A DNA stretch of 39,701 nt from a virus, in the IMG/VR virus record IMGVR_UViG_3300017788_000069, positions 1-39,701 of that record; one strand, given 5' to 3'. Both the position numbers and the translations under genes were made by a program. The notes under the pieces were generated by a model. That model did not search any database and was not told the DNA's origin. It worked only from the letters and a program-made list of their open reading frames with translations. Shown piece after piece: positions 3,470 through 39,199 of the stretch; the first letter of the stretch is position 1, and each line of letters opens with the position of its first letter.

Positions 3470-3541
3470 TGCCCGATAGCACAACGGTAGTGCACGGCAC
3501 TGTTAATGCTGGGGTTGTAGGTTCAAATCCTACTCGGGCAG
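3470..3541 (+). tRNA. tRNA-Asn (anticodon GTT)
   Basis: A full cloverleaf can be drawn by hand. The acceptor stem TGCCCGA/TCGGGCA has 7 pairs. The D arm is GCAC with loop AACGGTA and GTGC. The anticodon stem CGGCA/TGCTG encloses the loop CTGTTAA with anticodon GTT. The variable loop is GGGTT. The T arm is GTAGG, loop TTCAAAT, CCTAC. The discriminator is G73. No CCA is encoded, so the host CCA-adding enzyme would have to supply it. The G28-T42 pair is a wobble. It is the only canonical tRNA I find in the window. Confidence 0.95.
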
Positions 3542-5374: not shown

Positions 5375-6412
5375 ATGGCAAAAGGCTTAGACGTCGGAAC
5401 ATCGTTTATCGTGTTTGCGTCCGATGCGCGCAAACAGGTAGCGGACAATAACACTGAGATGGTGGACTACGTGGCGTACAAAGAGTTTCGCGACGCGTTT
5501 TATATCATCAAACCCACGACACCCGTTGCGACCAAAATGATTGAAAAAGGTCTGCAGGGCCGCGTATTTGTCAAAGACGCCGACGGCAGTTTTATTTTGC
5601 TCGGCCAAGACGCCATTGAAAAAGCCGTGGAGCGCAACGATTCCGCGAAGCGTCCGATGTTTCGTGGCGTAGTATCGGCAAAAGAGAAAGAAGCAAAACG
5701 CGTATTGGCGTTTATTCTCAAAGAGGTGGTCGGACAGGCAGCAGAACCGCAGGAAAAAATTGTGTTTTGCGTGCCCGCGCAACCTGTTGATCAGGGCGAC
5801 GATGATTTTGACGTGGGTTATCACGAAGACGTTGTGCGGACGATTTTAGGCGAGTGCGGCTACGCCGCCCGCGCAATCAACGAAGCCGAGGCGCTGTGTT
5901 ACTCGGAACTCGAAAATGACGACTACACTGGCGTGGCGTTGTCGTGCGGCGCCGGCATGGTGAACTGCTGCGTCATGCTCAACGGCGAACCGACGGTGAT
6001 GTTTTCGACGACCAAGTCGGGAGACTGGATTGACCGTATGGCTTCTGTGGCGACGTCTGAGCCGGATTCCGTGGTACAAGCCGAGAAAGAACACGGCGAT
6101 TTCACCATCGGTGGCGCACCGTCCGAGAATGCGGTACTCGCTGCCGTGCAGGCGTACTACGAACGTTTGATTGACTACACGACAAAAAATCTTGCTGCGG
6201 CCATGTCAGGACACAAATTGCTGCCCAAGTTCAAAAATCCGTTGCCGGTTGTTATCGCCGGCGGCACGAGTCAGGCGAAAGGATTTGTGGACATGTTTGC
6301 CAAGAAACTAACCGAGAACAATTTTCCTTTGCCGGTGGCTGAAGTGCGCCACGCCAATGATCCGCTGCACGCTGTTGCGCGCGGCTGTTTGATCGCCGCG
6401 AAGGTGCTGTAA
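5375..6412 (+). CDS. Actin-like ATPase (ParM/MreB/FtsA superfamily)
   Basis: A 345-residue protein with the actin/Hsp70 nucleotide-binding signature. Phosphate 1 is GLDVGTSFIVFA at 4-15; the connecting segment has INEAEALCY at 168-176; phosphate 2 is VALSCGAGMVNCCVM at 187-201; the adenosine motif is VIAGGTSQAKGF at 293-304. It is larger than typical ParM and close to MreB. Known phage actin-like proteins segregate or position phage DNA, and this one could do the same. It follows a small membrane protein by one base and ends just before a strong terminator, so it closes a transcription unit. Confidence 0.88.
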   Translation: MAKGLDVGTSFIVFASDARKQVADNNTEMVDYVAYKEFRDAFYIIKPTTPVATKMIEKGLQGRVFVKDADGSFILLGQDAIEKAVERNDSAKRPMFRGVVSAKEKEAKRVLAFILKEVVGQAAEPQEKIVFCVPAQPVDQGDDDFDVGYHEDVVRTILGECGYAARAINEAEALCYSELENDDYTGVALSCGAGMVNCCVMLNGEPTVMFSTTKSGDWIDRMASVATSEPDSVVQAEKEHGDFTIGGAPSENAVLAAVQAYYERLIDYTTKNLAAAMSGHKLLPKFKNPLPVVIAGGTSQAKGFVDMFAKKLTENNFPLPVAEVRHANDPLHAVARGCLIAAKVL

Positions 6413-10694: not shown

Positions 10695-11107
10695 ATACCG
10701 CAAAATTGGAATCGTTGCAGCAAAAAGTCAATGCGTCACCGGAATTGTCCGGATTTGCCGATGACATTCAATCGGCACTGAATCGGCACGTAAACGATCC
10801 GAATGTCACGTTCGGCCCGTTTCTCATTATTGCGATTATTTCTGTCATTTTGCAGGTCATTTACTTGTGCCGACAAAAGACCGAGGAGACTGAAATTGTG
10901 AATCTCAGTCGGCTCAACAAGAAAATCGACGGTCGGCGCACACTGATGCTGCGGCGGCGGTTGAACAATTTGTGGACAGAATACTGCACCGAGAACAATC
11001 TGCCGCTGACAAAGTCAAATCCGCTGATTGCTGCGGTGTCCGATGTCGGTGAGCATCTTGGCGACGATACCGCCAACCAACTGTTTCAACTTGCTCGGAT
11101 GAAGTGA
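10691..11107 (+). CDS. Single-pass membrane protein
   Basis: A 138-residue protein with a soluble N-terminal helix pair, one hydrophobic helix (GPFLIIAIISVILQVIYLC, around residues 42-60) and a basic, helical C-terminal domain (KKIDGRRTLMLRRRL). The start is set by AGGAG and an ATGA overlap with the upstream two-helix protein. It overlaps the protease gene downstream by one base. No family is recognised. Confidence 0.7.
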   Translation: MNTAKLESLQQKVNASPELSGFADDIQSALNRHVNDPNVTFGPFLIIAIISVILQVIYLCRQKTEETEIVNLSRLNKKIDGRRTLMLRRRLNNLWTEYCTENNLPLTKSNPLIAAVSDVGEHLGDDTANQLFQLARMK

Positions 11108-11934
11108 TGGCGAAAAAATCAAAAGCCGAAGCCGTAACAAAAAGCGTACTGCCCCTAAAAGAGGTGCTGCGCTATTTGTACAACTACGGTTATTTCGGAC
11201 AGAAAACGTGGGCCGCTGTGCAAAAAGTGAACGGCGCAGAGTTACAAAAAGCCGTCCGCTCGTATCAGCGTTTCAGCGGCCTGCCGGCGAGCGGGGCAAT
11301 TAACGAAGCGACAGCGCACAAATTGCGGCGGCATCGTTGTGGTTTGCCTGATTTCAACATCACCGGCAAATCGACCGATCCTTGTAAATGGCCGATGAAG
11401 AATATCACGTACTATCACGAAATTACGATGCCGGGCATTACCGACGAGCAGGTGGTACGGGCTTTTGATATTGCCATTTCACAGTGGGCCGAGGTGTGCG
11501 ATATCGAGCCGAAGCGTGTGGATACGCCAAAACGGGCGAATATTTACGCGCAATCCGGCGTGGGTAAACGCCATCGTCTTGACGGCGCTGGCGGTACGTT
11601 GGCGTGGAGCGAATTGCCGTGCGGAGTTCACGAGCATATTCAACTCGATCAAATGTATGACGAGGCTGAAGACTGGTCGTTTAACATGGCCGTGGCCGTC
11701 ATGTGCCACGAACTTGGACACGCGCTGGGTTTGCCGCATTTGAGTTTTGGAAATTTAATGGCGCCTTATTACGATCCAAACGTTACCGCTCCGCAACCGG
11801 GTGATGTGGAAGAAATAGTCAAACTGTACGGCGCGCGTATTGCTCCCTATTCGGCGCAAAAAGACACGGCATTGTCGGTGCACGGGCAGTTGCTCATCAA
11901 CGGCCGGCCCTACGTGCTCGTACCGCAAACTTAA
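11107..11934 (+). CDS. Matrixin (M10-type) zinc protease with PGBD-like N-domain and cysteine switch
   Basis: A 275-residue protein. Residues 17-75 resemble the peptidoglycan-binding-like prodomain of matrix metalloproteinases. They are followed by R-C-G-L-P-D at 77-82, matching the MMP cysteine-switch PRCGxPD in which Cys binds the catalytic zinc and keeps the enzyme latent. The catalytic site HELGHALGLPH at 201-211 provides three zinc His and the Glu202 base, with the Met-turn NLMAP at 217-221. The C-terminal 25 residues form a short tail. There is no signal peptide; delivery by lysis or in the virion is likely. It could cleave host envelope proteins or surface layers. The start is the ATG overlapping the upstream stop. 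Confidence 0.88.
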   Translation: MAKKSKAEAVTKSVLPLKEVLRYLYNYGYFGQKTWAAVQKVNGAELQKAVRSYQRFSGLPASGAINEATAHKLRRHRCGLPDFNITGKSTDPCKWPMKNITYYHEITMPGITDEQVVRAFDIAISQWAEVCDIEPKRVDTPKRANIYAQSGVGKRHRLDGAGGTLAWSELPCGVHEHIQLDQMYDEAEDWSFNMAVAVMCHELGHALGLPHLSFGNLMAPYYDPNVTAPQPGDVEEIVKLYGARIAPYSAQKDTALSVHGQLLINGRPYVLVPQT

Positions 11935-16570: not shown

Positions 16571-19500
16571 ATGCCCGAACAACTGCCCGCGACGCCCGCC
16601 CCGCCGCAGTTTCGCGAATTTGGCGACGTTGGTGCGCTGCGCACCAGTATTTTTGATCGGGCGTTGCACAGCGCGCAGAATATCGAGCCGGTCCAGAATG
16701 ATCTGTACACGCTGCGCCTCGCCAACGTCGGCTATTCTGGCCCGGAACGTTTTAACAAGGCCGCGCAGAAAAGGGCCGTGCTGACCAACGGCTCGTTAGC
16801 GCGCAAACTCACCGGCACATGGGAACTGGTCGATAACAAGACACAGCAGGCCATCGCGTCGCGCGCCACGACAATCGCCAACGTGCCATATTTAAGCGAC
16901 GCCGGCACGTTCATTAACAAAGGCGTCGAATATACGCTGGCGCATCAATTGCGGTTGCGGCCGGGCGTGTTCACGCGTGAAAAAGAAAACGGCGAGTTGG
17001 AAGCCCACGTGAATACACTGCCCGGAAAGGGCCGCTCGCACCGCTATTACATGGACCCGAAAACGGGCGTATTTAAAATTCAAATCGGTCAGGCGCAAAT
17101 TCCGCTGATGCCACTGTTAAAAACACTGGGAATACCTGAAAAAGACATTCGTGACGCTTGGGGCAATGAGATCACCGCCGCCAACATGGAACAGGGTGAT
17201 GCCGGCACGATCGATAAGATTTACAAACGTATGGCGTACAAAGCCGATCCCAATCTCGACCAACTGGGAAAAATTAAAGCAATCGCGGCGGAATTTGCCA
17301 AGACCGAATTTGACGAAGAAGTCACGCGGCGCACGCTGGGCACGCCGTACAAAAACATGACGCCGCAGACGATTTTGGACATCACCAAAAAGTTAATTGC
17401 CGTCAATCGCAAAGAGGCCGATTCAGACGACCGCGACAGCATGGTGTTTCAGCAGGTGTACGGCCCCGAAGATTTAATTGCCGAGCGGTTCATCAAAGAC
17501 CGCGCGAATCTGCGCCAATTACTCTGGAAAGCCACGGCAAAAAAGAGCCTGAATCATATTTCGGCCGGCACGTTCAACAAGGCGATTAACGCGGCGCTCA
17601 TCGGCTCTGGTTTGGGGTCGAGTTTAGAAGAGATCAATCCAGCCGAGATTTTCGACCAGCAGACACGCGTCACGCGTTTGGGCGAAGGTGGCATCGGCAG
17701 TATTGACGCCATTCCAGCCGAGTCGCGCAGTGTACAGCCGAGCCACTTTGGCTTTATTGACTACTTAAGAACGCCAGAAAGCGGCAAGGTCGGCGTCGAC
17801 ATGCGCTTCGCAGCCGGCGCGAGAAAATCTGGCACGAACCTCAATACGTTCGTCATTCCCGTACGCAATGCCCGCACCGGCGAAGTCGAGCATAAAACAC
17901 CACAGGAACTCGCGGATATTCCGCTGATGTTTCCGGGGGAAGAAAAGAGCGACCTGCCGATGGTCGCGGCGCTTGTGAACGGCAAAATCAAATATGTGCC
18001 AAAAGACAAGGCTGAGTATACCGTGCCCAACATGGATAACACGTTTTCGTCGTTGACGAATATGGTGCCGATGAAATCCATGGTCAAAGGGCAGCGCGTG
18101 ATCATGGGTGCGCGCATGTTTACGCAGGCGTTGCCGCTCGTCAATGCCGAGTCGCCGTTGGTGCAGTCAGCCACTGCTGACGACCCCAATACGTCGCACG
18201 AAGACAAGATGGGCGCGAACTTAGGCGCGATTCGCGCGAAAGGGCCGGCACGGGTCGTGTCGGTTACGCCAGATGAAATCGTACTGCGCGACCAAAATGG
18301 CAATAAAGACGTCATTGACCTGTATAACGACGCGCCGTTCAATCGCAAAACGTTTTGGACGCAAAAAGCCACGGTGCAGCCGGGTGATGTTGTACAGCCC
18401 GGGCAATTACTCGCGACGTCGAACTTTACTGATCCAAACGGCTCGGCAGCGCTTGGCATGAATCTGCGGGTGGCCTATCTGCCGTTTCGCGGGCGGAATT
18501 ACGAGGATGCGGTGGTGATTTCTGAGTCGGCGGCCAAGCGACTGACGTCAGAGCACATGTATCAGCACGAAGCACAGTGGGACGACAATTCACATGTCGG
18601 CAAGAAGGCATTTTTAAGTTTGTTTCCCGGCGAATATGACCGCAAGATGCTCGACAAGTTCGACGATAATGGCGCGATTAAAAAAGGCACCGAGGTTAAC
18701 TTTGGCGACCCGTTGATTTTAGCCGCAAAGAAACGCGATCAGGTGTATGGCAAGGTGCATCGCGGTCGGGCCGGTAATTTTGCCAACGAAACCGTGACGT
18801 GGGAGCATCATTCGCCCGGCATTGTCACGGACGTCGAGCATACGAAAAAGGGCGTTAGCGTGGTCGTCAAGTCGAAGTCCCAGATGGAGGTGGGCGACAA
18901 ACTGACCGGGCGTTTTGGCGATAAGGGCGTTGTGGCCGAAATTGTTCCCGACGATCAGATGCCGCGTGGAAATGATGGCAATCCGTTCGAGGTTTTAGTC
19001 AGTCCGTTGGGTCTCGTCACTCGCGTCAATCCGGCCCAAGTTGTCGAGGCCGCGTTGAGCAAGGTCGCTGAAAAAACCGGGCGGCCGTTCAAAATCAAAG
19101 ACTTCGACTCGGACAACGATCTTGTTGAGTTTGCGCTGAAAGAATTAAGCAAGCACAATCTGTCGGACACAGAAGACGTCACCGATCCCGAAACCGGCCG
19201 TAAAATTCCCGGTATTCTGACCGGCAAGCGGTTTTTCATGAAATTGCACCATACGGCGGAATCCAAGGGCCAAGGCCGGTCGATCGGGTCATATACGGCA
19301 GAGGGCACGCCGGCCAAAGGCGGATCAGAAGGAGCCAAACGCGTCGGCATGCTGGAACTCGGCGCCTTGCTTTCGCACGGCGCTGGCAAAGTCATTCGTG
19401 ACGCCAAAATGGTGCGCGGACAGGCGAATCCCGAATATTGGACGCAATTTATGGCCGGGTATGATCCGCCGCTGCCCAAAGTACCGCATGTGTACGAAAA

Positions 19501-20956
19501 GTTCGTCGGCCAATTGCGCGCGGCTGGAATTAACACTGTGCGCACCGGCAGTAAGACGCACATTATGGCCATGACTGACAAAACAGTGGACGAGTTGGCT
19601 GGCGACCGCGAATTACAAAATGCCGAGACCGTCGATTGGAAGGGGAATTTAAAACCGGTGCGTGGCGGCCTGTTCGACGAAACGCTGACGGGCGGCCACA
19701 ACGGCAATCGGTGGAGCAAGATCACGCTGCATGAACCGATGCCCAATCCCATCATGGAAGAGCCGATTCGCCGCACGCTGGGCCTGACCGAGAAGCAGTT
19801 TCGGGATGTGCTCTCGGGTGCGATGCCGCTGAACGAGAAAACCGGCCCGCAGGCGATTGCCGACGCATTGGGCAAAATTAATCTGCCGAAAGCCATCGAT
19901 CAAGCGCGGGAAGACATTAAATCGGCGCGCAAAAACGTTCGCGATGCGGCCGTGCGGCGACTGGGCTTTTTGAAGGGGGCCGAAGCGTCTGGATTACATC
20001 CTAAAGACTGGATGATGACGAAAGTGCCGGTACTTCCACCGATGTTTCGCCCGGTGTCGTCGATTGGGCCGAAAAAGATGCAATTGATCGACGACGCGAA
20101 TTATCTCTACAAGGAGTTATTGGAAGCGAACGGCGTGCTGAAAGAATCGGCTGGCCTTGTGGCTGATTATGGCGGCGAGCGGCTAGGCGTATACGACTCG
20201 CTCAAGGCCGTGACGGGTTTGGGCGCGCCACAGCATCCCAAGAACGTCGAGCGCAATGTCCGGGGCTTTCTCGACAAGATTTTCGGTGACTCGCCCAAAT
20301 TCGGCACCATGCAGCGTAAATTGCTGTCATCAACCGTGGACTTGGTGGGCCGCGGCGTGATTACACCCAATCCCGACCTAGACATGGACGAAATCGCAAT
20401 TCCCGAGGATAAAGCGTGGGATATCTACAAGCCGTTCGTCGTGCGCGGCCTCGTTCGCCGGGGTTTGCCGAGAATGCAGGCGCTACAGGCCGTGACCGAT
20501 CGTAATAAAGCCGCATTTGACGAACTGAATAAGCAAATGAACGCCAAGCCTATCGTGATCAATCGCGCGCCGGTGCTGCATCGTTATGGCGTGATGGCGT
20601 TTTATCCGCGGCTGACCAAAAACAAGGTCATGGAAGTGAATCCGGTGATCACCAAGGGTTTCGGCGCGGATTTTGACGGCGACGCGATGCAGTATCACGT
20701 GCCCAGTACCGACGACGCGGCCAAGGAAGCCGTCGAAAAAATGCTGCCCAGCAAGAATTTATTCTCGACGTCGCAATTTAAAGCCCACTATGTCCCTAAC
20801 AAAGATTATCAAACCGGGGTATACTTGGCGTCGAGCCGTACGAATAATGCCGCGAAGCCGCGCGTGTTTCGTAATCGCAAAGACGCCATTGCGGCCTATC
20901 GGCGCGGCGATGTCGGTATAGACACGCCGGTGCATATTGTGGAAGATAAAGAGTAG
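16571..20956 (+). CDS. RNA polymerase beta fused to N-terminal half of beta'
   Basis: A 1461-residue protein joining two subunits. The beta part (about 1-985) has a fork/Rif-region segment at 356-374 (N356-P357 to G373-G374) with Gln363 where E. coli has His526; NYED at 643-646 matching the E. coli E813-D814 region; Lys777 and Lys785 in GDKLTGRFGDKG, with the same spacing as the active-site lysines K1065 and K1073; and the C-terminal clamp part near 895-960. The beta' part begins around GLFDE (1033), lacks the Cys-rich zinc-binding segment, has VLPPMFRPV, a helical region, INRAPVLHRYG and the catalytic DFDGD at 1367-1371. It ends just before the TTxG region, which opens the second polymerase gene. 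Confidence 0.93.
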   Translation: MPEQLPATPAPPQFREFGDVGALRTSIFDRALHSAQNIEPVQNDLYTLRLANVGYSGPERFNKAAQKRAVLTNGSLARKLTGTWELVDNKTQQAIASRATTIANVPYLSDAGTFINKGVEYTLAHQLRLRPGVFTREKENGELEAHVNTLPGKGRSHRYYMDPKTGVFKIQIGQAQIPLMPLLKTLGIPEKDIRDAWGNEITAANMEQGDAGTIDKIYKRMAYKADPNLDQLGKIKAIAAEFAKTEFDEEVTRRTLGTPYKNMTPQTILDITKKLIAVNRKEADSDDRDSMVFQQVYGPEDLIAERFIKDRANLRQLLWKATAKKSLNHISAGTFNKAINAALIGSGLGSSLEEINPAEIFDQQTRVTRLGEGGIGSIDAIPAESRSVQPSHFGFIDYLRTPESGKVGVDMRFAAGARKSGTNLNTFVIPVRNARTGEVEHKTPQELADIPLMFPGEEKSDLPMVAALVNGKIKYVPKDKAEYTVPNMDNTFSSLTNMVPMKSMVKGQRVIMGARMFTQALPLVNAESPLVQSATADDPNTSHEDKMGANLGAIRAKGPARVVSVTPDEIVLRDQNGNKDVIDLYNDAPFNRKTFWTQKATVQPGDVVQPGQLLATSNFTDPNGSAALGMNLRVAYLPFRGRNYEDAVVISESAAKRLTSEHMYQHEAQWDDNSHVGKKAFLSLFPGEYDRKMLDKFDDNGAIKKGTEVNFGDPLILAAKKRDQVYGKVHRGRAGNFANETVTWEHHSPGIVTDVEHTKKGVSVVVKSKSQMEVGDKLTGRFGDKGVVAEIVPDDQMPRGNDGNPFEVLVSPLGLVTRVNPAQVVEAALSKVAEKTGRPFKIKDFDSDNDLVEFALKELSKHNLSDTEDVTDPETGRKIPGILTGKRFFMKLHHTAESKGQGRSIGSYTAEGTPAKGGSEGAKRVGMLELGALLSHGAGKVIRDAKMVRGQANPEYWTQFMAGYDPPLPKVPHVYEKFVGQLRAAGINTVRTGSKTHIMAMTDKTVDELAGDRELQNAETVDWKGNLKPVRGGLFDETLTGGHNGNRWSKITLHEPMPNPIMEEPIRRTLGLTEKQFRDVLSGAMPLNEKTGPQAIADALGKINLPKAIDQAREDIKSARKNVRDAAVRRLGFLKGAEASGLHPKDWMMTKVPVLPPMFRPVSSIGPKKMQLIDDANYLYKELLEANGVLKESAGLVADYGGERLGVYDSLKAVTGLGAPQHPKNVERNVRGFLDKIFGDSPKFGTMQRKLLSSTVDLVGRGVITPNPDLDMDEIAIPEDKAWDIYKPFVVRGLVRRGLPRMQALQAVTDRNKAAFDELNKQMNAKPIVINRAPVLHRYGVMAFYPRLTKNKVMEVNPVITKGFGADFDGDAMQYHVPSTDDAAKEAVEKMLPSKNLFSTSQFKAHYVPNKDYQTGVYLASSRTNNAAKPRVFRNRKDAIAAYRRGDVGIDTPVHIVEDKE

Positions 20957-21921: not shown

Positions 21922-23883
21922 ATGCTTAAGACGACGCTGGGACAACTGCTAATTAACGACGCGCTGCCCGAGGATATGCGCGACTACAATCGCGTGCTCG
22001 ACAAGAAGACCATGGGTTCGCTGGCGACTGATCTGGCCAAGCGTTATCCCGATAAATATCGCGATGTGATGAAGAAAATTCATGACGTAGCGCACTCTAC
22101 CGCGTACTCGACCGGCGGCCTGTCGTTTGGTTTAAAACACATCCGCTCGACGCTAGCCGCGCAGACTGCTGCCGTAAAAGTGCGGCAGCAATTAAAACAA
22201 ATTTTGGCCGATACAAATTTGTCGGACAAGGAGCGCACGTTCAAAATACTTAAACTTGCGGCAGATTCACAAAAAAAATTGGTGGATGATGTCTTCAATG
22301 AGGCGAAAGACACTGGCAATCCTCTGGCATATCAAGTGCTCGGGTCCGGCATTGGAAACAAATTTTCGCTAAATTCGCTGATCGGCGCCGACTTGCAATA
22401 CGTCGACCACAAGGACGAGCCGATTCCGCTGCCCGTATTGCGAAGTTATGGCCGCGGCCTCACGCCCGCCGAATACTTCGCGGCTGCTTTCGGCGCTCGC
22501 AAAGGCGTTATCGACACTAAAACTGCCACAGCCGACGCCGGATTTTACGGCAAGCAATTAACGCAACTTGCGCATCGTTTGCTGGTCACTGCCGACGATG
22601 AAGAAGACGAAGAGAAACTGAAAGAAGCCGAAAATCGTGGCATGCCTTCGGACGTCGACGATCCAGACAATGAGGGTGCGTTGCTCGCGCGGTCCGTCGG
22701 CCCGTATAAACGCAACACGGTGCTGACGCCTAAGATATTGCGGGATATTAAAGCGTCCGGTGTACAGGACATTCTTGTGCGCAGTCCCACCGTCGGCGGT
22801 CCGGACGACGGCGGTGTTTACGCCAAAGACGTGGGTTACCGCGAAAAAAGCCGATTGCCGCCCATCGGTGACTATGTTGGCATCGCCGCCGCGCAAGCCA
22901 TCAGCGAGCCGGTGTCGCAGTCGCAACTCTCCAGTAAACACTCTGGCGGCGTAGGCGGCGCCAAATCCATTGGCGGTTTTAAAGCCATCAACGCACTCGT
23001 GCAGGTGCCCAAAAAATATCCCGACGGTGCGACGCACGCGCAAAAAGACGGCACGGTGCAAGAAATTCGTCCGGCCGCGCAGGGCGGGTTTTATGTGCAA
23101 ATTGACGGCGAAGATCACTACGTCCCGACCGATCGCGAAATTAGCGTAAAAAAGGGCGACGTGCTAGAAGCCGGCGATGTTGTGTCTGACGGCATGCCAA
23201 ATCCGGCGGAGATAGTAAAACACAAAGGCGTGGGCGAAGGGCGCAAATACTTTGTATCGGCCATGCGCAATGTCTTAAAAAACAGCGGCGTGTCATCGCA
23301 CCGTCGAAACATTGAATTAGTGGCCCGTGGCCTGATTAATCATGTGCGCATGACCGATGAATATGGCGAATACTCGCCAGATGACGTCGTGCCGTACTCG
23401 ATGCTGGAGCGCAATTGGCAGCCCCGCCCGGGCGTCGCGGCACTACCGCCAAAATCAGCCATTGGGCAGTATCTAGAAAAACCGACCCTGCATTATTCCG
23501 TCGGTACCCGTATTACAAAGTCAGTCGCAGATACGCTGCAGAAATACAACGTTAACGCAGTACAAGCCCACAAGGAACCGCCGCCGTTTCAATCGGAAAT
23601 GATTCGCGGTATGGCGAACATCTCGAACGATCCGGACTGGATGACGCGCATGCTCGGTTCGTATCAAGAGCGCGGACTTTTGGGCAGCGTACATCGCGGT
23701 TTAACCAGTGATACCAATAGCAGCAGTTATGTGCCGGCATTGGCCCGCGGCGAACAATTCGGCCTTGGCGGCCCGACGAGCGGCTGGAAAGCAGAGCCGC
23801 CGAATTCCAGTTCGTCAATTCTGAATACGCCCAAACTCCCTGAAAATAACAATCCGCCAAGTAAATCCAACTTATTTGGCTAG
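21922..23883 (+). CDS. RNA polymerase beta' C-terminal half
   Basis: A 653-residue protein that continues beta' where the 16571 product stops. Its first residues, LKTTLGQLLINDALP, match E. coli TTVGRAILWxxxP, and NRVLDKKTMGSLATDL matches NQALGKKAISKML. The bridge/trigger region is IGDYVGIAAAQAISEP, then QSQLSSKHSGG, with His340 at the E. coli His936 position; the usual Arg933 is Ser and Met932 is Leu. A later segment (RNIELVARGLINHVRM) matches the conserved INDKHIEVIVRQM region. The C-terminal 50 residues are Asn/Ser/Pro-rich. It must associate with the first protein to form one active site. No alpha, omega or sigma homologue was seen in the window. Confidence 0.92.
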   Translation: MLKTTLGQLLINDALPEDMRDYNRVLDKKTMGSLATDLAKRYPDKYRDVMKKIHDVAHSTAYSTGGLSFGLKHIRSTLAAQTAAVKVRQQLKQILADTNLSDKERTFKILKLAADSQKKLVDDVFNEAKDTGNPLAYQVLGSGIGNKFSLNSLIGADLQYVDHKDEPIPLPVLRSYGRGLTPAEYFAAAFGARKGVIDTKTATADAGFYGKQLTQLAHRLLVTADDEEDEEKLKEAENRGMPSDVDDPDNEGALLARSVGPYKRNTVLTPKILRDIKASGVQDILVRSPTVGGPDDGGVYAKDVGYREKSRLPPIGDYVGIAAAQAISEPVSQSQLSSKHSGGVGGAKSIGGFKAINALVQVPKKYPDGATHAQKDGTVQEIRPAAQGGFYVQIDGEDHYVPTDREISVKKGDVLEAGDVVSDGMPNPAEIVKHKGVGEGRKYFVSAMRNVLKNSGVSSHRRNIELVARGLINHVRMTDEYGEYSPDDVVPYSMLERNWQPRPGVAALPPKSAIGQYLEKPTLHYSVGTRITKSVADTLQKYNVNAVQAHKEPPPFQSEMIRGMANISNDPDWMTRMLGSYQERGLLGSVHRGLTSDTNSSSYVPALARGEQFGLGGPTSGWKAEPPNSSSSILNTPKLPENNNPPSKSNLFG

Positions 23884-34872: not shown

Positions 34873-35874
34873 ATGGCTGTTATCGCTACACCGACGTCGC
34901 ATCCGTTGGTCCAATGTTGCGACCTTCCAAACACATCAATTTCTTTAACTCCGGTTCCGTGTGCGGGTCAGAACGTCATCAGCGCGCCGATTACGCATGT
35001 AAATGCGCAACCCAATTTGTCGAAAATGCGCGCCGTGTCGTTGTCGCAGGGCCAGTGCGCCGAGATTGAATGGCAGATGCACGATAAAGATGGTGCGCCA
35101 GTAGATTTAAGGCCCTGTGAGATAACAGCCCCTCCCGGCGCATTAAAAATTGTATTGCGGTTAAAAGAACAACTAGCGCTTGGAAATACACGCGCAGTGC
35201 AGTCACTCGACGCGATAATCGTAGATGCGGCCACCGGCAAGGTAAAAGTCAACTTGACGAAAAACATGGTCGGTATTCCGGGCATTTATTATGGCGAGAT
35301 GGCGCTGATCAACGTGGCTGCCGAAAACGCCGACAAACCATGCGTAGTTTTTTCCAACACGTTTTATGTCATCATTAATCGCAGCACGTTTGGTTCAGAA
35401 ACGTCAGTTGGCGGGCCCCCGAGCATCGCAGAAATTCGTTTACACTTGCGCGACTCCAGCCCGTCTGAAAGTTTTCTGATTGACAACATCATGTTTGACG
35501 ACGCCGAGATTGCTCTAGCGATTGCGCGGCCGATTCAGTATTGGAACGAAATTCCGCCGCCACTAGATTTAATTTACACCACGCAGAGTTTTCCGTTTCG
35601 CTATCACTGGCTTGAAGGTATTTGCGCGAATTTGTTTCTGATGGTCGCGGAGCAGTTTCGGCGCAATCAGTTAAGTTACAATGCCGCCGGTGTTGCAGTT
35701 GACGATCAGAATAAAGAAGCCAGTTACGAGCGCGCCGGGCAGACTCGTTGGCAGGCGTATCGCGAATGGGTGCGCGCCACAAAAGCCAGCATTAACCTCG
35801 AAAGTTGCTACGGCGAGGTATCGTCAAATTACAAGTACAGCGCCTACACCGATGCGATTCGAATTCGCTACTAG
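34873..35874 (+). CDS. Putative head-tail connector or neck protein
   Basis: A 333-residue protein with AAAAGGAG upstream. The N-terminal 175 residues are beta-rich (AVSLSQGQCAEIEWQM, IYYGEMALINVAA). The second half is helical: SIAEIRLHLRDSSPSES, FDDAEIALAIARPIQYWNEIPP, then WLEGICANLFLMVAEQFRRN and WQAYREWVRATK. The helix content with R-D-x-x-P and W-N-E-x-P-P resembles phage head-completion proteins I have seen in large phages, though I cannot name a family. It is transcribed after a terminator, so it needs its own promoter. Confidence 0.65.
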   Translation: MAVIATPTSHPLVQCCDLPNTSISLTPVPCAGQNVISAPITHVNAQPNLSKMRAVSLSQGQCAEIEWQMHDKDGAPVDLRPCEITAPPGALKIVLRLKEQLALGNTRAVQSLDAIIVDAATGKVKVNLTKNMVGIPGIYYGEMALINVAAENADKPCVVFSNTFYVIINRSTFGSETSVGGPPSIAEIRLHLRDSSPSESFLIDNIMFDDAEIALAIARPIQYWNEIPPPLDLIYTTQSFPFRYHWLEGICANLFLMVAEQFRRNQLSYNAAGVAVDDQNKEASYERAGQTRWQAYREWVRATKASINLESCYGEVSSNYKYSAYTDAIRIRY

Positions 35875-35905
35875 ATAAATTTCTGGCAAAAACGCGTCAT
35901 ATTTA
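35872..35905 (+). promoter_or_regulatory. Promoter-like element 1
   Basis: TAGATAAA at 35872, an A-rich stretch and CGTCATAT at 35895-35902. It is the most diverged of four related elements; the spacing between boxes is 23 rather than 19. It overlaps the preceding stop codon and precedes the 35957 gene. Confidence 0.55.
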
Positions 35906-37091: not shown

Positions 37092-37112
37092 ACGCGACGG
37101 GCGGTGAATGAA

Positions 37113-37162
37113 AAGGAGTGCGGAAATGCCGGGGCTTCGGCCCCGTGTTTCCGCCTCCTTTT
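37113..37162 (+). terminator. Long UUCG-loop terminator
   Basis: A nested stem: AAGGAG with CTCCTT, GCGGAAA with TTTCCGC, and an inner GGGGC-TTCG-GCCCC hairpin, with T residues at 37159-37162. It ends the 36672 unit directly before promoter element 3. Confidence 0.93.
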
Positions 37163-37165
37163 AAC

Positions 37166-37210
37166 TATCAGCGCTGTTGCTAAATAAACGCAAAAAACGC
37201 GGCATATAAA
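37166..37210 (+). promoter_or_regulatory. Promoter-like element 3 (giant RNA unit)
   Basis: CTATCAGCGC, then GCTAAATAAA (box at 37181-37188), an A6 run and CGGCATAT at 37200-37207. The upstream CTATCAGCGC and the box are shared nearly exactly with element 4. It directly precedes the gene-free structured segment. Confidence 0.75.
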
Positions 37211-37214
37211 GTGT

Positions 37215-38284
37215 AGGCAGATATACGTATCTGCTTACGGGGAGTTCCTTGACCCCCGCAAAGCCCTGAGTGCCGGCACTTTTAAGTGACCGTGAACAGG
37301 GCAGAAAAGGCGCCGCGTCCCGCGATAAAAGGACCGAGGAGTCATGTACATGGCTTCGCGACGTCGGTGCCGGTTGATCACCCGGTCGGCCCAAGTGGCC
37401 GGGTGGATCAAGCGACCCATCACGAACCCGACGGGATCGCGGCGTCAGCCGCGCCGCCCGAAGGGGAGTGACGGGTCGTCCGGCAACGAGAAGGACTAGC
37501 AATCCTTCTTGTTGAGGTGGAAAGTAGCCGGCGGAGATCGTCAAAATCTCCATCGGTGAAGAGCAGCATCGCTGCCGTCCACCCGGGCTCCGCTTGTCAG
37601 CACGATACTCAGACAAGCACGCGGTTTGCTACCGCTGAAGCCGGATAAGTCCGGTGTAATTCTACGGGGAAGTTCCGTAGGGCTTAACAAGCCGCCACTG
37701 TTGTTGTCTGCGCCGCCAGAGGTTTTGTGGGTTCAACTCCCACAGGCGGACTTTACCCTTCATCGCTTGGGTTATCAGCGAGAGCCAACCTCATTCCAAG
37801 GGCTGAGAAGGTTGGAACCCACCAGATTGGGTTTGAGTCGAAGTCGAGCCTGTCGTTCTAACGGACGGCCATGACGACGACATTCTGATCGGGAGCACCA
37901 CGCCCCCGGCTTGGCGATCAGCCGTCATTGAGACACGGTTGGTCAAAGGGCAAAATCCTTTTGAGTTGACAACTGCAGGTCAACGAAAACCATCTTTCGG
38001 GCTCTGGTTGAGGAAGCGTGCGCAACATTGGCAGAACCGATCCGACAGTCGGTTCTGCGTCATCGTGTGAGGCCCTTCGGGGAGATACTCGCACGATTTA
38101 GGCTGTCGGTAAACCCGGTAAATTTCCGGGCGTGGTTTGGGCGTTGGATTGAGCGCTAACCACGAGAAATATCAATCCCCACGTTTCCGCCAGCCGAAAC
38201 GTTGTTTACAAAAGCGCTGGCCAGTCGTGACAAGATCGCGACGAAGTCAACACGGTGGGATTCCGTGCTCTGCGAGTTTTTTTT
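37215..38284 (+). ncRNA. Candidate giant structured RNA (about 1.07 kb)
   Basis: This stretch has no convincing gene but is dense in hairpins from end to end. Examples: 37217-37223/37228-37234; 37263-37268/37297-37302; 37490-37495/37503-37508; 37533-37538/37546-37551; 37593-37598/37612-37617; 37662-37667/37675-37680; 37965-37970/37979-37984; 38033-38040/38049-38056; a UUCG-capped stem around 38071-38079 inside 38064-38095; and a stem from the ACGTTTC/GAAACGT pair near 38181-38202. One hairpin (37726-37744) is a perfect tRNA-like T arm, TTCAACT loop included. It has its own promoter-like element and a T8 tail. Size, phage setting and fold density resemble GOLLD/ROOL-type ornate RNAs; the class is inferred, not matched. 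Confidence 0.75.
38251..38284 (+). terminator. Probable terminator of the giant RNA
   Basis: CACGG (38251-38255) pairs with CCGTG (38263-38267), a small CTC/GAG hairpin may form just after, and eight T follow at 38277-38284. The gap between the main stem and the T run is longer than usual. Confidence 0.55.
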
Positions 38285-38285
38285 A

Positions 38286-38332
38286 TCTATCAGCGCCTGC
38301 GCTAAATAAATGACAAAAGAACGGCATATTTG
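38286..38332 (+). promoter_or_regulatory. Promoter-like element 4
   Basis: CTATCAGCGC, then GCTAAATAAA (box at 38303-38310) and CGGCATAT at 38322-38329, with the same spacing of 19 as elements 2 and 3. It precedes the AAA+ ATPase gene by 40 bases. Confidence 0.75.
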
Positions 38333-38368
38333 TTGTGTTCGGTTTAACTCTTATGAAGGAGGTTTTTT

Positions 38369-39199
38369 ATGACGACGACGGTTGCCGATCTTTTGCCGGG
38401 TTATCACGCCCGGCGCGGCGAGTTGCTCGCCGCGCGATTCCTCGCCGCCATTACGGCGACCCTCCGGGCGGCGATGATGGTCGGGCATCCCGGCACGGGC
38501 AAGACATTCTTCGGAGAATGTTTTGCCAAAGGCCGGAATGCAAAGCACTTTTTCATACCCTGCCATTCATGGCTCACCTCCGAAGAGGTGAATCAGGGTA
38601 TCGACGTCGGGCGGGTCGCGGTCGGCGTCAAGGACGCCGACGAGGCGTACCTTGACGGCAACTTGCTCCGCGCCGTCAAGGCGTCACGACACGGCGATGT
38701 CGTCGTGACGCTCGACGAGGTGGAGAAGGCCGGGGCGAGATTTTACCCGCTCATTCTGGATTTTCTCCAGCACGGGCGGGTGCCGGATGCACGACACCAA
38801 ATGCATCAGGCGGATTGTCGGCGTCTTTTCGTTGTGCTCACCGCCAACGAGGAGGCCGACATTCCCGACGCCGTGAAGCGGCGGTGCTTCCGCGTCGTGA
38901 TGGAGTTCCTTCCGGAGAACGTCGAGGTCGACGTGCTGCGAAAGAGCACCGGAGCGACCGGGGCGGCCTGCCGCCTTGTCGTACGGATGGCGAACGTCAT
39001 CCGCACGAAGGGCGAGTCAAAGCCCTCACTGCAGGAGTTGCGTGAACTCCTGCGGTGCCGAACCTTGGTGTCGTCAGCAGACGATACCGAGGCGCTGCTT
39101 GACGGGTTTCTCGTCAAGCACGAAAAGGACCGTGCAATGTTGAATCGGGAGTTTAACGCCCCCGGCGCGACGTTGTACGGTGAATTTCGGCGTGGGTGA
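38369..39199 (+). CDS. MoxR/CobS-type AAA+ ATPase
   Basis: A 276-residue protein, the typical length of a MoxR-type AAA+ module. Walker A is GHPGTGKT at 39-46; Walker B is VVVTLDE at 111-117; sensor 1 is LTANEE with Asn160; Arg171-Arg172 are Arg-finger candidates. The GGAGG site precedes the ATG. Such ATPases act with a VWA-domain partner as a chaperone or metal chelatase-like pair; phage CobS-like proteins are known. The next gene, after a terminator, could be the partner. Codon use is GC-rich. Function in this phage is unknown. Confidence 0.85.
   Translation: MTTTVADLLPGYHARRGELLAARFLAAITATLRAAMMVGHPGTGKTFFGECFAKGRNAKHFFIPCHSWLTSEEVNQGIDVGRVAVGVKDADEAYLDGNLLRAVKASRHGDVVVTLDEVEKAGARFYPLILDFLQHGRVPDARHQMHQADCRRLFVVLTANEEADIPDAVKRRCFRVVMEFLPENVEVDVLRKSTGATGAACRLVVRMANVIRTKGESKPSLQELRELLRCRTLVSSADDTEALLDGFLVKHEKDRAMLNREFNAPGATLYGEFRRG

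Follow-up and report, generated by a model that had tools for sequence, protein, structure and literature searches.

The DNA analysed here (hereafter the window) is a 39,701-nt viral stretch covering positions 1 to 39,701 of IMG/VR record IMGVR_UViG_3300017788_000069. The contig is 92% coding, and its longest non-coding gap by a codon-usage model, 37092-38350 (1259 nt), encloses the segment under study, 37215-38284, bearing out the dense packing described in a sequence-only reading of the window that had singled out this segment as a candidate giant RNA. The surrounding region is organized in cassettes, each headed by a AAAAACNCGGCATAT-type element on the + strand (at 35888, 36563, 37193, and 38315) and carrying, in this order, a 149-aa ORF, an ORF of ~139 aa, the RNA, and an AAA ATPase gene (Table 1). 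A window scan found four copies of the motif against 0.05 expected, with no shuffle reaching more than one, and the tandem copy at 37193-37213, AAAAACGCGGCATATAAAGTG, is in agreement with the earlier claim that the segment has its own promoter-like element; a check of this element ruled out a sigma-70 site as its identity. RNA polymerase beta and beta' homologues are encoded in the window, and the phage's own multisubunit RNA polymerase may transcribe the RNA from the shared promoter motif. The layout of this polymerase is unusual: a 1461-aa ORF (16571-20956) joins the beta (Rpb2) domains to the initial beta' (Rpb1) domains, in that order, and a second ORF of 653 aa (21922-23883) encodes what is left of beta' (Rpb1 domain 5). 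The proposed T-run terminator was recovered in part: the T8 run is present, but a strong intrinsic-terminator hairpin was looked for directly before it and not found. Elsewhere in the window, the phage encodes an actin-like protein (5375-6412) whose match to Pfam Volactin is full-length (2.6e-60) as well as a Matrixin-type metallopeptidase with a peptidoglycan-binding domain (11104-11934), and a tandem GGGTCAGGGCCAGCC-type repeat occurs within an ORF at the very contig end (39585-39701).

Table 1. Features of the RNA cassette and its borders (window coordinates)
Feature	Position	Strand	Basis or remark
Promoter-like element GCTAAATAAACGCAAAAAACGCGGCATATAAAGTG of the RNA cassette	37179..37213	+	Tandem motif; also before the homologous G028 and G006 cassettes
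H1, 5'-terminal 11-bp hairpin with UACG loop	37213..37238	+	Covariation against L080
ORF1, 49-aa basic protein MASRRRCRLITRSAQVAGWIKRPITNPTGSRRQPRRPKGSDGSSGNEKD	37350..37499	+	GAGGAG upstream of ATG; alternative start 37344
Hairpin GCCGGA-UAAG-UCCGGU ahead of M1	37640..37655	+	Conserved in L080; L088 has a hairpin in the same place
M1, covarying hairpin with GGAAG loop, then GGC..GCC hairpin and GCCAC	37655..37698	+	Model R1
tRNA T-arm-like element at the A/B boundary	37706..37751	+	Read from the sequence; local fold -20.2 kcal/mol
Core module: P1, P2, pseudoknot P3 (GGNCU/AGNCC), P4	37782..37870	+	Model R3
Conserved single-strand-like ACGACATTCTG 3' of the core	37881..37891	+	Identical in L032
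Tail module: two hairpins, invariant loops, linker GAAGUCAA	38224..38273	+	Model R2
T8 run closing the RNA cassette	38277..38284	+	Sequence; next promoter region follows
Promoter-like element of the next cassette (AAA ATPase gene 38369-39199)	38301..38335	+	Motif copy at 38315

The minimum free energy of the segment is -466.1 kcal/mol compared with -395.5 +/- 9.4 kcal/mol for 100 dinucleotide shuffles (z = -7.5), and windows drawn at random from this phage group, most of them coding, give a mean z of about -1.3. The corresponding fold contains 28 hairpins, of which 20 have stems of at least 5 bp (shuffles: mean 7.7, maximum 15), in line with the sequence-only count of at least ten clear hairpins; the UUCG and 7-nt loops noticed earlier were also found, with one UUCG and one UACG tetraloop and five 7-nt loops (shuffles: mean 1.7, maximum 5). 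With z = -6.2, the reverse strand is almost equally well folded, so that folding energy alone cannot fix the strand; the promoter, ORF1, and covariation place the RNA on the + strand. This folding of both strands, as well as the patchy distribution of the element, would fit a DNA-level structure (e.g. a packaging or replication signal) or decaying sequence giving rise to no functional RNA. Such an explanation is hardly plausible given the dedicated promoter found at the same relative place in all homologues, the protein-level constraint on ORF1 on the same strand, and the invariant loops and compensated stems, including G-U pairs on the + strand.

The segment had been described as gene-free, and this part of the reading does not hold, as ORF1 within it is conserved as a protein. 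An ORF listing at 60 aa misses this reading frame of 49 codons. Its relative in the closest related phage contig, G028 (at about 94998-95132, - strand), aligns with a protein score of 114 compared with a maximum of 40 among 2000 shuffles; 13 of the 28 identical residues are encoded by different synonymous codons, and the differences at codon positions 1, 2, and 3 number 13, 9, and 22, respectively. ORF1 is thus a credible gene, conserved at the protein level. No Pfam family was found for its basic product, which may bind the RNA of the segment and would then be a candidate partner encoded inside the transcript. That part of a gene-free-looking structured stretch codes for protein calls for caution in scans that equate structure with non-coding sequence.

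Relatives of this phage were defined by a capsid-type protein, which shares 30% identity with the annotated major capsid protein of Salmonella phage Arash. In G028 (107 kb), the contig in which locus L032 lies, the two halves of the segment are found 60 kb apart: the 3' half (domain B) is homologous to 33.9-34.5 kb and the 5' half (domain A) to 94.6-95.3 kb, the RNA of L031 in contig G027 being identical to that of L032. By blastn, the core (81% identity over 111 nt) and the tail (84% identity over 43 nt) are both present in L032, where the tail lies before the core, the reverse of the order in the window, within a promoter-to-terminator cassette of ~600 nt. This cassette follows the homologue of gene 34873-35874, a slot occupied in most other relatives by small protein genes. 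The A cassette of G028, about 3.6 kb downstream of a tmRNA/tRNA array, shows the same promoter, 5' hairpins, ORF1, and M1; behind M1 it has a second ORF, again small, and then a terminator-like hairpin and a T7 run. This second ORF, also basic (L080 1794-1636, - strand, MTDWQRAWRHCPKTRG...), has homologues in G002 (L082) and G013 (L084), where it lies outside such an RNA. The homologous G028 cassette folds at z = -11.8/-9.0 compared with about -1.3 for control windows. From these alignments, A and B are separate genes in G028 and one apparent transcription unit in the window. The idea of a candidate giant RNA can therefore be kept for a large structured RNA, in view of the compensatory changes in relatives described below, but not for one single giant RNA, which is unsupported because in the closest relative the halves are separate promoter-to-terminator cassettes and the modules of B are swapped. 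The L032 RNA parts outside the tail-to-core stretch total ~270 nt compared with 330 nt from core to tail in the window, lengths compatible with B being circularly permuted; as no homology was found within these L032 parts, the permutation stays an interpretation. G028 is probably incomplete, being a 107-kb contig in a group of ~200 kb, and the same phage could thus carry a further, fused copy.

Comparison of these relatives for compensatory changes, as proposed in the sequence-only reading, revealed 12 compensatory double changes, with all of the 55 named pairs of H1, M1, core, and tail kept intact, as would be found for a conserved structured RNA, on the basis of two to three distinct sequences (two independent ones for B, three for M1) and of structures drawn partly from these same sequences. 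Sliding the pairing partners abolishes pairing, and shuffling gives counts at least as high as those observed in 12 to 123 of 500 trials, a control that is weak because only two to three distinct sequences are available. For example, H1 keeps its 11 pairs in L080 with two compensatory double changes, the loop there being UUCG, and the nine pairs of M1 are all kept in three lineages with three double changes. In the tail, 12 of 12 pairs are kept with five double changes, and the CAAGA loop and GGGAU are invariant. The core, including its pseudoknot, keeps 23 of 23 pairs with two double changes; its helices P1 and P2 are invariant, and covariation says nothing on either of them. RNAalifold places a small GAGCCAACCUC hairpin where P1 is drawn; this was set aside in favor of P1 and pseudoknot P3 because the change in P3 is compensatory. 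Overall, the covariation in these alignments appears strong for the tail and M1 and supportive elsewhere. Between the conserved modules, no homologue was detectable in relatives for the ~330 nt separating core from tail or for most of 37500-37630, nor was one found there for the T-arm-like element, which consists of GUGGG-UUCAACU-CCCAC (37727-37743) inside GUCUGC/GCGGAC and may separate or cap the domains, e.g. as an RNase P-type signal.

A third lineage came from the M1 covariance model R1, which scores 58 bits in G006 and G007. In these contigs, M1 sits in a gene-free RNA stretch of ~1.1 kb within a non-coding gap of 1352 nt that has the same promoter, a 5' hairpin, and a T-arm-like GCCGGGUUCGAUUCCCGGC before the T-run at the end of the RNA; no ORF1 homologue was found in either contig. 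A phage tmRNA and a tRNA array lie about 1.7 kb upstream of this RNA. Ahead of the G006/G007 cassette lies a long near-perfect hairpin (L088 1246-1323), whose sole match is a spurious sub-threshold microRNA family, and just before the G006 tRNA array, L110 5273-5343 matches the Pistol ribozyme with 58 bits, compared with a gathering score of 34.5. Several other long gaps of relatives contain tRNAs or tmRNA, and phage tmRNAs beside tRNA arrays occur in four relatives (L110 9922-10271, L126 3809-4154, L145 1407-1756, and L155 8755-9102), with Rfam scores of 111-129 bits and ARAGORN tag peptides that differ between two of them. Among the 50 records searched, only three lineages carry any module, pointing to an element that is rare and patchy, like accessory cassettes. 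In degenerate-pattern scans of viral contigs, G027/G028 alone came up repeatedly, the pattern matches at L067, L068, and L069 being due to chance. The 110 M1-pattern matches in genome contigs, mostly from GC-rich genomes, are likewise attributed to chance, since the 80 loci listed score at most 24 bits with R1 compared with at least 58 bits for true members. A weak R2 match in G025 falls within a coding gene, the weak R1 matches (15-19 bits) that were inspected by eye look like ordinary coding sequence, and searches of phage and plasmid records gave no relevant match.

Taken together, these comparisons indicate that the locus is a real structured RNA that is absent from Rfam, mosaic, and separable, and the best explanation, which we consider probable, is a two-domain structured RNA cassette that may act as an RNA or RNP scaffold. 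The main rival is that two unrelated elements share one promoter, domain A being a short ORF1 mRNA with structured untranslated regions and domain B an independent structured RNA of ~0.5 kb that is co-transcribed, in which case the giant RNA would be no functional unit. This is suggested by the separate A and B cassettes of G028, by the two ORFs of the A cassette, by structured-looking leaders that precede protein genes in other cassettes of this phage group, and by the tRNA-like element at the A/B boundary. Yet M1 also occurs in the ~1.1-kb gene-free RNA of G006/G007, without ORF1, and is therefore not merely an untranslated region of ORF1, and no second promoter motif or T-run is found between A and B in the window; we consider this alternative rather unlikely. 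According to the two-domain explanation, a large phage would carry the locus as an accessory cassette with transcription of its own, giving a ~1.07-kb transcript made of domain A (about 37213-37705, with ORF1 inside) and domain B (about 37756-38284). As A and B are separate in the relative and the modules of B are reordered, each domain probably folds on its own, and the two could act together or in trans, most likely within a single RNA or ribonucleoprotein particle. The product may serve as an RNA or ribonucleoprotein scaffold during infection, working in a GOLLD/ROOL-like manner without being a member of either class. More tentatively, the locus may represent a new class of large phage RNA, in which autonomous modules are fused, split, or permuted, a small basic protein acts as partner, and assembly takes place in trans, a proposal that we regard as possible rather than probable. 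Giant structured RNAs form a small group in phages, and to our knowledge the function of none of them is settled. The conserved small protein provides a handle on RNA function, and because a relative exists in which the RNA is split and reordered by nature, it can be tested directly which parts need covalent linkage.

With respect to known classes, no match at the gathering score was obtained for the segment against the 4227 families of Rfam 15, the only match in the window being a tRNA at 3470; a permissive search of the segment (E up to 5) gave only unrelated sub-threshold matches, all on the - strand. The sequence-only suggestion that the RNA could be new is consistent with this absence of a match. 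The L032 and L080 RNAs gave nothing relevant either, even when E values of up to 2-5 were admitted for searches of ~1 kb. The covariance-model check proposed earlier thus returned no match in the segment for GOLLD, ROOL, OLE, HEARO, or raiA, nor for group I/II introns, RNase P, or other Rfam 15 families, and in the case of GOLLD and ROOL this extends to the relatives. Because Rfam contains GOLLD, ROOL, and OLE profiles (PMC12286853) and none of them matches, membership is unsupported. No tmRNA was found in the segment by ARAGORN or Rfam, tools that do recognize tmRNAs in the relatives. Size, phage origin, tRNA-island relatives, the pseudoknot, and the T-arm-like element could also be read as signs of a highly diverged GOLLD, ROOL, or other known large RNA missed by the Rfam models, but this is very unlikely, considering that the window, L032, and L080 RNAs are unmatched even in the permissive searches and that the conserved modules resemble no matched family.

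GOLLD is a homo-oligomeric RNA cage whose expression rises during lysis, ROOL is an RNA-only nanocage, OLE is a large structured bacterial RNA with protein partners, and tmRNA combines a coding part and a tRNA-like part in one structured RNA. Like OLE, the segment would be a large structured RNA with a candidate protein partner, but it lacks an Rfam match and the candidate partner would be encoded within the transcript. The coding part and the tRNA-like part of the segment are reminiscent of tmRNA, which is itself present in relatives of the phage, whereas ORF1 comes with a start codon of its own and a Shine-Dalgarno-like sequence. In the open-access literature, to which our search extended, no report was found of a comparable phage RNA that is split or has its modules swapped. 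Circularly permuted group II introns offer a precedent for domains of one large RNA class being reordered in some members (PMC8637638); module order likewise differs between phages here, with the differences that no intron family matches and that the permutation rests on two modules in two phages. Many GOLLD RNAs exceed 800 nt and are found in phages and prophages, often near tRNA islands and sometimes with a tRNA in the linker, and ROOL is a phage- or prophage-borne ornate RNA that is found near tRNA islands and contains pseudoknots (PMC12286853). The window fragment itself has one distant tRNA, whereas the G006 and G028 RNAs lie near tRNA/tmRNA arrays. The segment resembles GOLLD in being large and phage-borne, with relatives near such arrays and a T-arm-like element inside, and differs from it by the missing Rfam match, by modules that are scattered, split, and reordered between phages, and by its conserved ORF. 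It shares with ROOL the phage location, the pseudoknot, and relatives near tRNA islands, but has no Rfam match, exceeds the described 659-nt example, corresponds to two genes in a relative, and contains an ORF. The resemblance to GOLLD and ROOL proposed from the sequence therefore holds in kind, for a large, phage-borne RNA with tRNA islands near its relatives, but not as membership, and its size, phage location, own promoter, tRNA-island relatives, and T-arm-like element make these two classes its nearest analogues.
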